Below the pieces are notes generated by a model. The model did no database searches. It saw only the letters and a program-made list of their open reading frames with translations, and was not told the origin of the DNA. Shown here piece by piece: positions 5,120 to 34,758 of a stretch of 64,000 nt of DNA. Both the position numbers and the translations under genes were made by a program. Each line of letters begins with the position of its first letter. Positions within the stretch are counted from its first letter, which is position 1. Source of the DNA: Rhodopirellula baltica SH 1. GTDB lineage: Bacteria; Planctomycetota; Planctomycetia; Pirellulales; Pirellulaceae. The DNA lies in NCBI RefSeq assembly GCF_000196115.1, contig NC_005027.1, positions 4,464,001-4,528,000 on the forward strand, written 5' to 3'.

Positions 5120-6799
<1,680 letters not shown>

Positions 6800-28898: not shown

Positions 28899-29618
28899 AT
28901 GAACGTTCTCATTCTCACCGGTGCCGGAATCTCTGCGGAATCCGGTATTCCCACCTTCCGCGACGCTAACGGCTTGTGGGAAGGGCACGCCGTTGAAGAA
29001 GTCGCCACACCCCAGGGTTTCGCTCGCAATCCCAATTTGGTGCACGAGTTCTACAATCAGCGCCGACGGGCGCTACTGAACCCCGAGATTCAACCCAACG
29101 CAGCGCACGTCGCGCTGGCCGATTTCGAACGCGAACATCTTGAAAATGGACGCGGCGATTTCCTGTTGGTGACGCAGAACATCGACAACCTCCACCAACG
29201 TGCTGGCAGCCAAAACGTGCTGGCGATGCACGGTCAATTGCTGCAAGTTCGCTGCGTGTATTCCGAAGAGATCTTCGACTGGACCGGTGACCTGAGCGTC
29301 GACACGCCGCACCCGGAAGCTCCCGACGACGATTCCATGCGAGGCTGCTTGCGTCCCAATGTCGTCTGGTTTGGCGAGATGCCGATCGGACTGACACAAA
29401 TTGAGAAGGCCGCGACGAAAGCCGATCTGTTCATCGCCATCGGAACATCGGGTGTCGTCTATCCCGCCGCCGGCATCGTGGCTCAAACGCCACCGCACTG
29501 CCGCCGCATCGAAGTCAACCTGGATGACACGCCCGCGTCGAGTGCATTCGATGAAACCATTCGCGGTGCGGCCAGTGTCGAAATCCCGAAGCTACTGAAT
29601 CACTTCAGCGCGATGTAA
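28899..29618 (+). CDS. cobB: NAD-dependent protein deacylase (sirtuin, class III)
   Basis: Sirtuins remove acyl groups from lysines using NAD. The 239-residue protein has the Rossmann motif [14 protein letters not shown], the NAD pocket QNIDNLH, the catalytic His in MHGQL, and [10 protein letters not shown]. The Tyr-x-x-Arg pair in [10 protein letters not shown] (FYNQR) is the mark of class III enzymes that prefer succinyl or malonyl lysine. The small zinc module looks reduced: RCVYSEE and GCLRP give only isolated cysteines instead of two CxxC pairs. The gene ends convergent with, and overlaps by 19 bases, the SRPBCC protein gene on the other strand. Confidence 0.93.
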
Positions 29619-30559
29619 ACGTCTGTGATCAGATCTTTGGTTTCGGTCGTTTCTGGATCGTTGCGATACACCTCACATCCGATCGCCTTGGCCATCTTCA
29701 GTTTCTTGTATCGGATGTATTGAATCCCGCCTGACCACGCGTTGCCAAGATGCGCGTACTCACCGATGTGCCGGACCAATAAAAACTTGCCGGCCGGAAC
29801 CGTGTCCGCAACGCAGCCATCCGGCACCGGCGTGCCCGCATCGGCCAAATAACCGGCCGTGTAATCGAACCATCGTTTGCGAAGATCCGAGGTCGTGTGA
29901 TAGAGGCTGGCCCATTCGTGAACGCGTTCGTCGTCCGCGTTGTAGTGTGACTTGACTCGTTCCAACGTCGCGGCCATGTGACAACCAATGTCGTCCATCG
30001 TGCAACCGCCACGCTGACCGATGATCATGCGATCGGGCTCGCTGACCACACCTTTGATCTCCAACTTCGAAAGCACTTCGCCGGTTTCAACGAACTGTTT
30101 GAACATCAGCAACCCACGTTCGTAGTCCATGCCCACGAACGTTTCCATCATCGATCGCATCCAAAACAAGAACCACGGCAACTTGCCTCGCATGTGCCAG
30201 GTGATCTTGGATCCCGGTCGACCATCCGTCATCACCGGTTCGATTTCGAACTCCACCTTTGACTGTGACTTGAACGGTTTGACGAACGCCAAATCGGCTT
30301 GCACCGATGCATTTGCTGACAAACTCTTCGGAGCCTGAAGTTGGCGATGGGTCATCGAACCTTCGCCGACCAATTCACCCTTCCAGTGATACGTCGCCCC
30401 CAACTCATTCGACGGATCGCTGACGGTCACTTCCGCATCGGGATCGACTTGCAACCAAGGCGACCAGCGAGTCCAAGTCGAATAGTCCCTGACCGCGTCA
30501 TAAACATCGCGTGTATCAGCGTCGATGGTTTGGGAACGTTGAATATGAAACGCGGGCAT
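29600..30559 (-). CDS. SRPBCC domain fused to a GyrI-like ligand-binding domain
   Basis: From the ATG at 30559 (GGGAT upstream) the protein has 319 residues; the open frame reaches to 30673. Residues 1-150 resemble the SRPBCC/polyketide-cyclase fold, a helix-grip lipid- or hydrophobic-ligand pocket ([18 protein letters not shown] at the start). Residues ~165-319 resemble GyrI/SOUL-type small-molecule-binding domains of regulators ([22 protein letters not shown]), but there is no DNA-binding domain. This pairing is a known planctomycete and proteobacterial arrangement with unknown ligand. It is convergent with cobB, overlapping it by 19 bases. Confidence 0.8.
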
Positions 30560-30699
30560 GGTGAATTCATCCCTACAGGGTGACTGACGTACCGAGGCGG
30601 ATATCCTAGCAAACTCGCCTAGTAACAGCATTACGATAGAAGTTTTCACTTTCTCGCAAACGCACGCCAACAACCCTGCCCCCCCCGATTGAACGCCCC

Positions 30700-32136: not shown

Positions 32137-33180
32137 ATGGCTCAGGCCAACGCTCAACTCAAGCAAGCTCGCCAAAGTTTAGGGTTGTCCCAGTTGCAGC
32201 TTGCGATGCGGGCAGGTGTCTCATCTCGGACCGTCCAATTCGCCGAATCCGGTCAGAACGTTTCGATCGGTACGATGCGGCGCATCGCCGGTGCATTGGG
32301 AATGCAAGCGGACCAATTGGTCCGAATCGATCCCGGCACGGGCCAAGATGGTTTCGCGGAACTCCCTTGGTCCGTCGCAGACAAGTTCCGAAGCAATCGC
32401 GGCTTCGACGAAGGCAGCATGTGCCGTAACGAAGCCGACGTCATTGAGGTTGTCCGACAACTGCGAGAGAACTTCAGCGTTCAGATTCAAAAATGGGGCA
32501 CGTCCCACGACCAGCAACAAGCGTTGCAGAAGAACTCAGCGATCGATGAGGTCTACTTTCGGTACGAACAACGGTACGTCGATCTATGGCGCAGAAACCC
32601 AGAGTGCATTCGCTTGGACCGCTTCGAAGACACTGTCGGTGGAGTCAGCATTGTGCTGCCGCTGACGGCCGAGTCCTTCCATGCATTCCGCGATGGAAAA
32701 TTGGCCTGGCTCGATATCTCTGCTGACGACTTAGCGGATCAATCCCAGTACTTGCTTCTCGATTCGGTCACCGAATTCACCAAGCAGTGTCGCCGCCCAT
32801 GGTACCAAGTCACCAAATCGCTCAGCCTCATCACGTTCAACCAAGTCGCATCATTGGCGCAGTCACCCAATCAATCCGACTTCGAGATGGTTTCGTTTTC
32901 GGCCAGTCCGTTGAACGAACGCAGATTGGGTACGATCGGCTTCATCCCAGAACCAACCAAAGAACCCGAATTCAGTTACCCGATCTACTGGTTCGGAGAA
33001 GACCCACGAATACTGGCCAAAGAAGAATACTCCAACTGGGCCACATTCAAGCACTTCGCGATGTTGATCAAATCCGTCGACAAGGCTGGCCTTCGCCGTC
33101 GAATGATTCGAAACCTACTGTCGATGGTCAAGCGACTGCAGCGGCCCGCCGAGCGATCGATTTCGCGTCAAGCTGCTTGA
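32137..33180 (+). CDS. XRE-family regulator with large C-terminal domain
   Basis: From the ATG at 32137 the protein has 347 residues. Residues 1-65 form a Cro/C1-type helix-turn-helix (LKQARQSLGLSQLQLAMRAGVSS, recognition helix SSRTVQFAE). The remaining ~280 residues are not a domain I recognise; segments such as YEQRYVDLW and GVSIVLPLTAESF have a mixed alpha/beta pattern that could be an acyltransferase-like fold, which is only a guess. It is convergent with the adenylate-forming enzyme gene and overlaps its 3' end by 53 bases, so the two transcripts are antisense there. Its position makes it a likely controller of the facing acyltransferase operon. Confidence 0.8.
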   Translation: MAQANAQLKQARQSLGLSQLQLAMRAGVSSRTVQFAESGQNVSIGTMRRIAGALGMQADQLVRIDPGTGQDGFAELPWSVADKFRSNRGFDEGSMCRNEADVIEVVRQLRENFSVQIQKWGTSHDQQQALQKNSAIDEVYFRYEQRYVDLWRRNPECIRLDRFEDTVGGVSIVLPLTAESFHAFRDGKLAWLDISADDLADQSQYLLLDSVTEFTKQCRRPWYQVTKSLSLITFNQVASLAQSPNQSDFEMVSFSASPLNERRLGTIGFIPEPTKEPEFSYPIYWFGEDPRILAKEEYSNWATFKHFAMLIKSVDKAGLRRRMIRNLLSMVKRLQRPAERSISRQAA

Positions 33181-34135
33181 ACGCTGCCGGATTCCACTTT
33201 GGCTTTTCCATCCAAGACATGCCATCGTCTGACATGAAGTCAAAGTGTTCAACCGGCAAACAGGCAACTCCACGCGGCAACGAAGCCATCGCCGGTAAGC
33301 TCAAACAATTAATCGAAACCTCAGCGTTCGTGGTTCGTCCGCGACGCTGCTGCAACGCAATGGCACCGTCACGATCGCTCAAATAGCCGGTGCAATTCCA
33401 CCAGTCATTCGGTTGCCATTTCTCGAGCCATCGAAGAGCACCGTCACCATACAACGATGGGTTGCCGTGGATTCGATAGCCACTGCCGCATGATTCGATG
33501 CGATCCTGGTTGGCCGTTCTGATCCCTTGGAACCGAACGTGTTTGTTCAATGAACAACCATCTTCAAATGAATCCAATTCCAATCGTGGATCGATCAATT
33601 GATAGATGGGATGAGAATCGGAACCACGATGCATCGACGCCATCAGCGTGTGATCCAGCTCAGCGACCCCGTAAGCCTGCAAGACCGTGAGCCGGCAACC
33701 ACGATTTGCCAACCAAGCTTCGACACTTCTTTCCAAAGAAGCCGGCAAGGGGTAGCCGCCTGTTGCCCAGAGCAACTCGGTTGGCCAATCCATTTGAGTT
33801 TCCATGGCCTGCAATAATAAGTCAGCTCCCGCCAAAGGCTGAGCGATGAACACCACCCGCCGATTCTCTGCCGCCGCCAAACGCAAAGCACGAATGCAGG
33901 TTGGTGGATGCAGATAAGTGATGACACGAGTCATCGCTTCCATGCCACCCAACGCCGCCGGATAAGCATCCACCACCAATGACTGAGACGGATCGACAAA
34001 AAATGGTTGAAGGTCCGGGAAGATGGTCGCCAGACGTTTCATTTTGTCCGTCGGTTTCTGGCTGTCGATGACGCGAAACTTAAAGGGGTCCAACGAGGTG
34101 GAACCAGCTGAATAGGAAAGGATTTTGCCGTTCAT
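33128..34135 (-). CDS. Shortened adenylate-forming (ANL superfamily) enzyme
   Basis: The open frame reaches to 34204, but the ATG at 34135 overlaps the stop of the upstream acyltransferase as ATGA, giving a 335-residue protein. Its sequence matches ANL core motifs in order: the phosphate loop A3 at residues 7-14 (SYSAGSTS), an A5-like QAYGVAELDHT near 165, and A7/A8-like NCTGYLSDRDG and RRGRT near residues 270-290. The normal N-terminal ~150 residues that precede A3 are absent, and no A10 lysine region is seen. So it is a minimal adenylating or acyl-transferring enzyme, or a non-catalytic relative. Role inferred from its coupled partner: activating or presenting an acyl group. Confidence 0.6.
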   Translation of the reverse strand: MNGKILSYSAGSTSLDPFKFRVIDSQKPTDKMKRLATIFPDLQPFFVDPSQSLVVDAYPAALGGMEAMTRVITYLHPPTCIRALRLAAAENRRVVFIAQPLAGADLLLQAMETQMDWPTELLWATGGYPLPASLERSVEAWLANRGCRLTVLQAYGVAELDHTLMASMHRGSDSHPIYQLIDPRLELDSFEDGCSLNKHVRFQGIRTANQDRIESCGSGYRIHGNPSLYGDGALRWLEKWQPNDWWNCTGYLSDRDGAIALQQRRGRTTNAEVSINCLSLPAMASLPRGVACLPVEHFDFMSDDGMSWMEKPKWNPAAFKQLDAKSIARRAAAVA

Positions 34136-34758
34136 GCTACCGCCGCCAATCCAAGTGAGCCGACCCGTGGTCGCGAGCCTGTTTCGCCAAACGAACCGCA
34201 ACACATCTCAACGAGTGCCGGCTGATCGGATTGTTTGGCAAGCTCTGCAAACATGTCCTGGCAATACGAACGCCCCCTCGCATCCGCCGCCATCAGCAAC
34301 ACGATGCTCTGCGTTTTCAATTCTGGATGGATAAAATCAAAGCCCGGCAGGTAAGTGAATCCCATCCGCCGATAGAAAGCTTTCATACGAACATCAGCGT
34401 TCGCAATTGAGATCCGCTTCCCGTTGGCCAACTGATGCGCCCATGAACCTCGCACCAGCGTTCGAAGCGCCGCAATGGGAGTGCTCGGCCCACGACGAAT
34501 CCGCAATTTGCAAGAAGCAAATAATTCGTCGCCATGCTGGTCCAACAAGACCGTTGGGTAATGGTCTTCGCAATCCAACCGGCCATTTGCGGCGGCCAAC
34601 ATCGTCAATGTGCCAAGCGGCTGACCTTGCCACTTCAAGATGTAATGGTTGCTGTATTCGTCGTAGTGGTAGAGGGTTTGCTCGGATCCATCACGACGAA
34701 TTTCTTGAACCACATCGAACAGCGGATCGGCCGTTCCAAAACAATGCAACACATCCAT
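34132..34758 (-). CDS. FeeM/LuxI-fold N-acyltransferase-like protein
   Basis: The 208-residue protein has the pattern of the GNAT-related family that includes N-acyl amino acid synthases (FeeM) and acyl-homoserine-lactone synthases: YDEYSNHYIL, then GQPLGTLTML for the first beta strands, CEDHYPTVLLD in the position of the usual LPxExxFP, a charged strand SCKLRIRRG, and a C-terminal YRRMGFTYLPG that closes a GNAT-like core. Known relatives transfer an acyl chain from acyl-carrier protein to an amino acid. It is translationally coupled by ATGA to the adenylate-forming gene. Catalytic residues do not match LuxI exactly (no clear E-x-D-x-x-D), so the substrate is open. Confidence 0.6.
   Translation of the reverse strand: MDVLHCFGTADPLFDVVQEIRRDGSEQTLYHYDEYSNHYILKWQGQPLGTLTMLAAANGRLDCEDHYPTVLLDQHGDELFASCKLRIRRGPSTPIAALRTLVRGSWAHQLANGKRISIANADVRMKAFYRRMGFTYLPGFDFIHPELKTQSIVLLMAADARGRSYCQDMFAELAKQSDQPALVEMCCGSFGETGSRPRVGSLGLAAVA

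Follow-up and report, generated by a model that had tools for sequence, protein, structure and literature searches.

The locus at positions 32137-34758 of the window (the whole stretch of 64,000 nucleotides of Rhodopirellula baltica SH 1 analysed here) raises the question of whether its three adjoining genes belong together and, if so, what such a set could be for. The sequence-only reading had described an acyltransferase gene coupled to that of a 'mini adenylating' protein, with a regulator gene facing them.

Layout and conservation of the three genes

All three ORFs, of 347, 335 and 208 codons' worth of residues, were found where that reading had placed them, and the two minus-strand genes are joined by the ATGA junction that it had described (Table 1). 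The regulator gene, on the plus strand, converges on this pair and its 3' end runs into the ANL-like gene by 53 nt. When the same overlap was measured in 15 loci, it was exactly 53 nt in 10 of them, 44-55 nt in 3, and 81 and 299 nt in the remaining two.

Table 1. Positions in the window of the three genes and of the features discussed in the text
Feature	Position	Strand	Size and basis
XRE regulator	32137..33180	+	347 aa; ORF and HTH_3 match
HTH_3 DNA-binding domain of XRE regulator	32158..32313	+	residues 8-59; Pfam match
GNAT-like region of XRE regulator (possible)	32431..33006	+	about residues 99-290; AF2 secondary structure and Foldseek
Truncated ANL-fold (adenylate-forming-like) protein, predicted	33128..34135	-	335 aa; AF2, Foldseek, hhalign
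A3/P-loop-like motif SYSAGSTS of ANL-like protein	34094..34117	-	residues 7-14
A5-like motif YGVAE of ANL-like protein	33659..33673	-	residues 155-159
A7-like Asp211 position of ANL-like protein	33503..33505	-	mostly conserved; hhalign register non-significant, E 0.65
Invariant Lys311 in C-terminal KPxW motif of ANL-like protein	33203..33205	-	alignment conservation
FeeM-type N-acyltransferase (probable, by profile)	34132..34758	-	208 aa; PF21926 match at residues 28-156
ATGA junction (stop/start overlap) between the acyltransferase and ANL-like genes	34132..34135	-	sequence
Tail-to-tail overlap of XRE regulator and ANL-like genes	33128..33180		53 nt; ORF coordinates

We compared gene neighbourhoods across 199 Pirellulaceae genomes, and the expectation that the trio would be conserved together in relatives was borne out. 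The ANL-like protein was found in 15 of the 199, every one of which also carries the acyltransferase (present in 2 more genomes besides). The XRE gene adjoins the ANL-like gene in 14 of the 15; the remaining one is G188, whose contig stops right behind its ANL-like gene. Regulator matches are more widespread (34/199, weak partial matches counted). Outside the family, a search of 392 genomes of the phylum, with at most 5 candidates scored per listed genome, matched the ANL-like family in a single genome, which was the window's own. The cassette tables leave out ORFs shorter than 90 or 100 aa and those that overlap larger ones; the ANL-like ORF of locus L075, hidden by this rule, was added by hand. 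Furthermore, comparison with the R. europaea orthologues gave dN/dS values (simple Nei-Gojobori) of 0.046 for the XRE gene, 0.053 for the acyltransferase gene and 0.135 for the ANL-like gene, indicating purifying selection on all three. This selection, together with the joint recurrence across genomes, places the three genes beyond chance. In a sister genome (G158) the regulator is kept alone and the acyltransferase/ANL-like pair is absent; the regulator thus has a role without the pair.

Predicted folds of the three proteins

The sequence-only reading had described the acyltransferase as like the FeeM/LuxI fold, and profile searches support the FeeM type for the family: of its 16 aligned members, 11 are matched by PF21926 at E<=0.01 (the best at 3.7e-10), and the relative at locus L068 scores 32.6 bits, above the curated cut-off of 27 bits. 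The window's own protein matches over residues 28-156 with E 1.1e-4 and 22.4 bits, which is under that cut-off. By these profile matches, 34132-34758 probably encodes a diverged FeeM-type N-acyltransferase. A search of the window's genome for canonical FeeM proteins reported none at E<=1e-3 and also missed the window's own acyltransferase, so that it is blind to diverged members. Searching solved-structure sequences with the acyltransferase alignment gave a short match as its best (E 0.013); the one structure concerned carries no description beyond a similarity to hypothetical proteins. In genome G185 a FeeM-like paralogue has in its vicinity a protein that matches OlsB weakly (32 bits, cut-off 350).

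The ANL-like protein had no match in Pfam or NCBIfam at E<=1, and its family is one that no model of either collection matched in our scans. Its AF2 model has a pLDDT of 74.4, falling below 50 in the P-loop region (residues 10-19). With this model Foldseek returned 88 PDB matches at E<=1e-3 (best 1.3e-7); the best 50 of the 88, which we take to be ANL enzymes, align poorly, with query TM 0.33-0.54 and rmsd 4.7-14 A. hhalign of the family against nine ANL proteins gave E 9e-4, Prob 23 and a score of 37.1, and none of 60 column shuffles attained that score (maximum 24.2). Against a single ANL protein the alignment was weak (E 0.036, Prob 1.4), with YGxAE in register, and the search of solved-structure sequences was uninformative (best E 0.67). 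Foldseek and hhalign both point to an ANL fold for the large domain, despite the low query TM and the Prob of 23, and in this predicted sense the 'mini adenylating' protein holds up as a fold relative of ANL enzymes. LuxE was considered as the closest ANL group and rejected, PF04443 having no match in the window's genome at E<=1.

What the protein retains looks like a truncated ANL fold with the ATP-loop motif at its very start. In the hhalign alignment its residue 6 falls on column 220 of the ANL profile, and the protein lacks what stands in front of the P-loop there. In SYSAGSTS, which aligns to the ANL P-loop, S7, Y8, A10, G11, S12 and S14 are invariant in 15 sequences; the metagenome-assembled genome (MAG) L090 has F in place of Y8. 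YGVAE, aligned to ANL YGxTE, is conserved in the same 15, and Lys311 of KPxW is kept in all of them. The Asp211 position is D in 14 of the 15 and E in L072, as it is in L090; here the C-terminal half aligns to the ANL profile non-significantly (E 0.65). A3, A5 and A7 are core motifs of the ANL superfamily, to which these positions presumably correspond. Because the region before the P-loop and the usual Lys after it are missing, and no catalytic C-terminal Lys is assignable, the protein may not adenylate.

The regulator carries an HTH_3 domain (Pfam, E 2.2e-10). Its AF2 model (pLDDT 72.4) gave no Foldseek match at E<=1e-3, the best being GNAT proteins at about 3e-3, and the C-terminal part is possibly GNAT-like by fold; the bounds in Table 1 were drawn by eye on the model, on weak to moderate evidence. 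A second FeeM domain in this part was unsupported by profile comparison (E 0.2). The folds in the cassette are supported by prediction.

Methyltransferase and NACHT genes in the fuller cassettes

Relatives of the trio carry further genes. A SAM methyltransferase is present in 9 of 16 cassette loci, encoded separately in 8 and fused to the ANL-like protein in 1 (the MAG L015). Outside the window's clade the count is 9 of 11, the gene lying between the acyltransferase and ANL-like genes except in the fusion. The cassette of Neorhodopirellula pilleata lacks this methyltransferase; ahead of its acyltransferase gene, and on the same strand, stands an unrelated one, an O-methyltransferase (PF00891). 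In nine genomes a gene for a NACHT-type NTPase stands divergent from the regulator (a Pfam scan covered 4 of the 9). The C-terminal domain of this protein was found in 9/199 genomes, all nine times at the cassette, and in no others among the 199; in the MAG L090 a stretch of about 6.8 kb past the regulator revealed no NACHT gene. The window's clade has neither gene. Elsewhere in the window's genome, the methyltransferase gave no match in a search made without a positive control, the whole NACHT protein gave none either, and nor did its C-terminal domain in a search that was positive in nine other genomes. Of the whole finding, this NACHT link is the newest element, and the window by itself gives no sign of it.

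Probably the trio arose by reduction of the cassette that in other genomes also includes the methyltransferase and the NACHT NTPase. We infer that both were lost, rather than gained elsewhere, because the XRE tree (midpoint-rooted for drawing) nests the trio-only clade among NACHT-bearing rows, where it groups with L072 (89/89). The trio-only clade sits on a long branch. The ANL-like tree, built after trimming the methyltransferase portion from the L015 fusion, is poorly resolved, with 8 of 13 inner branches open and long branches present. On a rival view, the ANL-like protein has no catalytic function and is a scaffold or a relic that binds a ligand, and the window's trio has been decaying since the methyltransferase and NACHT genes were lost. 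The missing N-terminal ANL part and altered P-loop, the long branch, the faster evolution of the ANL-like gene (dN/dS 0.135, about 0.05 for its neighbours) and the loss of the pair in G158 would agree with it. We consider this view unlikely, however, as the dN/dS of the ANL-like gene is still far below 1, and the 15 aligned sequences all retain the A3- and A5-like residues and Lys311, with Asp211 retained in 14 of them.

About equally improbable, in our judgement, is a conflict or defence module, in which the NACHT protein would be an immune sensor, the acyltransferase, methyltransferase and ANL-like protein would either alter some macromolecule or produce an alarm signal inside the cell, and the window would hold a sensorless relic. 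The tie of a NACHT-type NTPase to the cassette speaks for it, as do the one genome without the acyltransferase/ANL-like pair, the patchy distribution and the differing neighbourhoods: on the acyltransferase side we met priA; an ion channel with hisA; a chorismate-binding enzyme; the O-methyltransferase, a sigma factor and a kinase; a sulfatase with DUF1571; and Tex. On the other hand, of seven cassette proteins scanned with PADLOC, the two ANL-like proteins and the acyltransferase of the window matched nothing at E<=0.1, and what the others matched we take for generic folds (HTH, P-loop and methyltransferase). Ten flanking proteins were scanned in the same way: at E<=1e-5 eight gave nothing, and the remaining two matched through common folds that are compatible with defence (a protein kinase domain, PD-T4-6, 1.1e-74; a phospholipase D domain, DrmC, 7.6e-17). 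In viral contigs none of 33 pattern hits was confirmed.

Membrane-lipid tailoring, where the acyltransferase would make an aminolipid-like compound of the ornithine- or glycine-lipid type for its partners to trim or decorate, with no signalling, is less probable still: OlsB-like and FeeM-like enzymes have a common broad fold and the G185 paralogue lies near its weak OlsB match, but the cassette has a dedicated regulator and a NACHT partner, is confined to few genera, and showed us no second acyltransferase.

Proposed function and comparison with known systems

The account that we favour, tentatively and with somewhat less than even confidence, is a cassette specific to a lineage of Pirellulaceae for the synthesis of an N-acyl product, tailored by the ANL-like protein and the methyltransferase, under XRE control and, in the full form, with a NACHT response. 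The FeeM-type enzyme would acylate an amine such as an amino acid or a derivative, with acyl-ACP as the probable donor of the chain. The truncated ANL-fold partner would act on the same pathway intermediate, its likeliest task being to activate or bind a carboxylate, and in most relatives outside the window's clade the SAM methyltransferase would modify this intermediate as well. The convergent regulator, perhaps with a GNAT-like ligand domain, would control the set, and in the full form the divergent NACHT-type STAND NTPase with its private C-terminal domain would be triggered by the product or by the same cue; that either protein senses anything is suggested by its domain type. The window would then hold a derived, stripped form consisting of acyltransferase, ANL-like protein and regulator. 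A bolder version, which we regard as quite improbable, makes the NACHT protein the dedicated receptor of an acylated molecule made by the neighbouring acyltransferase, ANL enzyme and methyltransferase, with the C-terminal domain of either the NACHT protein or the XRE regulator reading the ligand, and the window's lineage re-wired to the regulator alone. With a probable synthase, a tailoring partner and a regulator in one compact conserved set, which a NACHT protein joins in relatives, the identity of the product and its reading by the NACHT protein become direct experimental questions.

In the accessible parts of the open-licence literature on quorum sensing and N-acyl compounds in Rhodopirellula we found no description of this cassette. 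Planctomycetes do make N-acyl amino acids, by genes that are often unclustered, as PMC12479983 stresses. The same paper gives the stieleriacine (N-acyl dehydrotyrosine) pathway of Stieleria as NasY, a ThiF-type TyzB-like protein and a nitroreductase, and leaves the suggested link of our locus to stieleriacines unsupported. Common to the two are an acyltransferase of the N-acyl amino acid synthase type in Pirellulaceae and a methyltransferase in the neighbourhood, whereas the partners here are the truncated ANL-like protein, the XRE regulator and the NACHT NTPase; Pfam found neither ThiF nor nitroreductase among 4 neighbours in the window and 12 flanking proteins of other loci. N-acyl alanine methyl esters were considered as a parallel for the methyltransferase and set aside; the passages of PMC11580390 consulted do not contain the word methyltransferase. 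With the FeeM N-acyl amino acid synthase (PF21926), the cassette acyltransferase family shares a nearly full-length profile match; it differs in that the window's protein stays under the curated cut-off and no ACP gene was noticed adjacent to it or elsewhere in the cassette. LuxI-type acyl-homoserine lactone systems likewise place an acyltransferase of the same broad fold beside a regulator, but here the adjacent regulator is of the XRE/HTH_3 type, not LuxR, and ANL-like, methyltransferase and NACHT proteins are added. Exosortase-associated loci also bring together a FeeM-like acyltransferase (TIGR03694) and an ANL-type AMP-ligase; there, unlike in the present cassette, the ligase is full-length.

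Gene layout and encoded proteins

The genome holding the window is a single contig of 7,145,576 bases, of which the window takes 4464001-4528000. The three ORFs that the sequence-only reading described as a FeeM/LuxI-fold acyltransferase-like protein, a mini adenylating enzyme and an XRE regulator are borne out in the window, while its interpretation of them proved right in part. An ATGA stop/start links the minus-strand genes, and the regulator is convergent on this pair, overlapping the 335-aa gene by 53 nt, a length found exactly in 10 of 15 measured loci (44-55 nt in three; 81 and 299 nt in two). Elsewhere in the window, a polyketide-cyclase/SRPBCC-type domain is combined with a GyrI-like ligand domain in a single ORF.

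Coordinates of features in the window and at other loci (L-numbers)
Feature	Position	Strand
XRE regulator	32137-33180	+
ANL-like protein, 335 aa	33128-34135	-
Acyltransferase, 208 aa	34132-34758	-
SRPBCC/GyrI-like ORF	29603-30673	-
Regulator of genome G158	L066:8554-9597	
Methyltransferase-ANL-like fusion	L089:7101-8870; L015:194-1963	
FeeM-like paralogue set of genome G185	L082:8458-11560	
Duplicated 309-aa ORFs	L077:4129-5058; 5734-6663	+

The 335-aa protein had zero Pfam or NCBIfam matches at E<=1. Its AlphaFold2 model, built from 9 sequences (mean pLDDT 74.4, pTM 0.78; under 50 in the P-loop region, 10-19), gave 88 matches in the PDB at E<=1e-3, the best at 1.3e-7; the 50 listed, which we take, in part from their titles, to be adenylate-forming (ANL) enzymes, superposed only loosely (query TM 0.33-0.54, rmsd 4.7-14 A). 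In a separate comparison, the profile built from 15 family members aligned to one built from nine ANL proteins with a score of 37.1 (E 9e-4, probability 23), against <=24.2 in 60 column shuffles and 16.7 for the reversed alignment, placing residue 6 on the ANL P-loop and YGVAE on the YGxTE motif. Because the structure-model matches are joined by this independent, shuffle-controlled alignment, the protein is most likely an ANL relative starting at the P-loop. Asp211 aligned to the A7 position, in a stretch by itself below significance (E 0.65). A Lys usually follows the P-loop in ANL enzymes and is absent here; adenylation is possible.

The acyltransferase matched FeeM (PF21926) over residues 28-156 (E 1.1e-4) at 22.4 bits, short of the curated cut-off of 27; one relative scored 32.6 bits, and 11 of 16 aligned members matched at E<=0.01 (best 3.7e-10). 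A PF21926 search of the window's whole genome at E<=1e-3 gave no match and missed this very protein, so further diverged FeeM members may be present there. Genome G185 has a FeeM-like paralogue that bears a CDGSH iron-sulfur domain at its N-terminus; next to it stand one protein weakly matching BesC, a neighbour that looks similar by eye, and one weakly matching OlsB. This is a separate biosynthetic set and may be a new one.

The regulator matched HTH_3 (E 2.2e-10). Its model (pLDDT 72.4, pTM 0.65) matched no structure at E<=1e-3, the best being GNAT acetyltransferases at about 3e-3 interspersed with HTH domains; we regard a GNAT-like C-terminal part as weakly to moderately indicated. Profile comparison detected no homology between regulator and acyltransferase (E 0.2).

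The five-gene cassette and its probable history

Sixteen loci (15 genomes and the MAG locus L090) were compared. A class I SAM methyltransferase (~240 aa) lies between the acyltransferase and ANL-like genes in eight, and in one Pirellulaceae MAG it is fused to the ANL-like protein as one 589-aa ORF, which argues that the two act together. It is absent from seven (the window, L063, L064, L065, L067, L071 and L072), the last of which, Neorhodopirellula pilleata, has an unrelated O-methyltransferase (PF00891, E 3.4e-24) 5' of the acyltransferase on the same strand. In nine loci an 850-1211-aa protein is divergent from the regulator; NACHT (PF05729) was matched in two of four scanned (3.3e-11, 4.8e-13), two shorter ones falling under the cut-off, and the C-terminal 200 residues are alignable in all nine. 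This C-terminal domain occurs in 9/199 family genomes, always within the cassette's divergent gene, and these are every sampled cassette genome beyond the window's trio-only clade save G188, where the contig ends; a NACHT gene adjoining the L090 cassette was looked for and not found. Since the acyltransferase-side genes vary from one group to another (priA; ion channel and hisA; chorismate-binding enzyme; O-methyltransferase, sigma factor and kinase; sulfatase and DUF1571; Tex), the adjacency is more than inherited gene order. The trio is probably a cut-down version of a cassette of five genes that includes a NACHT partner, an important addition to the earlier, partly correct reading.

The XRE tree, midpoint-rooted for drawing only, grouped the window clade, whose branch is long (1.74), with N. 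pilleata (89/89) among NACHT-bearing rows, and nested regulator-only G158 within the window clade (96/97). The G158 regulator stands at the same place, 30 nt from a priA-like gene, with the acyltransferase and ANL-like gene absent and a dN/dS of 0.093 against the window. The most economical account has methyltransferase and NACHT lost in the window clade, followed by loss of the pair in G158; the ANL-like tree, with 8/13 inner branches open, does not settle it.

Distribution and selection

Among the 199 genomes, the ANL-like protein was found in 15, all of which have the acyltransferase; the latter occurs in 17. Regulator matches, weak partial ones included, extend to 34 genomes. A scan of an 84,980-species collection, using one genome per species and two peptide patterns so that members can be missed, confirmed eight loci, every one Pirellulaceae (R. 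europaea, R. sallentina, N. pilleata, R. maiorica, R. rubra, Aporhodopirellula aestuarii and two MAGs), R. europaea 6C being the closest named relative found. In 392 phylum genomes the ANL-like protein matched only the window's own. Against R. europaea, dN/dS was 0.135 for the ANL-like gene, 0.046 for the regulator and 0.053 for the acyltransferase. Five other family genomes (L077-L081) have regulator homologues with the pair not adjoining; at L077, two ORFs with identical first 60 residues mark a nearby duplication and may not be real genes.

Function and comparison with the N-acyl tyrosine pathway

The best-supported reading is that the cassette makes an acylated small molecule under its own control; amine, acyl chain, methylation and sensor we infer. 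A role in defence is still a live alternative. The cassette proteins gave generic PADLOC matches only; of ten flanking proteins, eight gave no match at E<=1e-5 and two did, one a protein kinase and the other of phospholipase D type. The sequence-only reading had mentioned stieleriacines, on whose quorum-sensing activity the authors of PMC7293339 state that they can do no more than speculate. The words 'Rhodopirellula', 'NACHT' and 'regulator' are absent from the main text of PMC12479983. In the planctomycete N-acyl tyrosine pathway described there, NasY works with ThiF and nitroreductase proteins, and nasY1 deletion brings stieleriacines near the detection limit (PMC12479983); neither of these partners is found in the flanking proteins scanned around the cassette.
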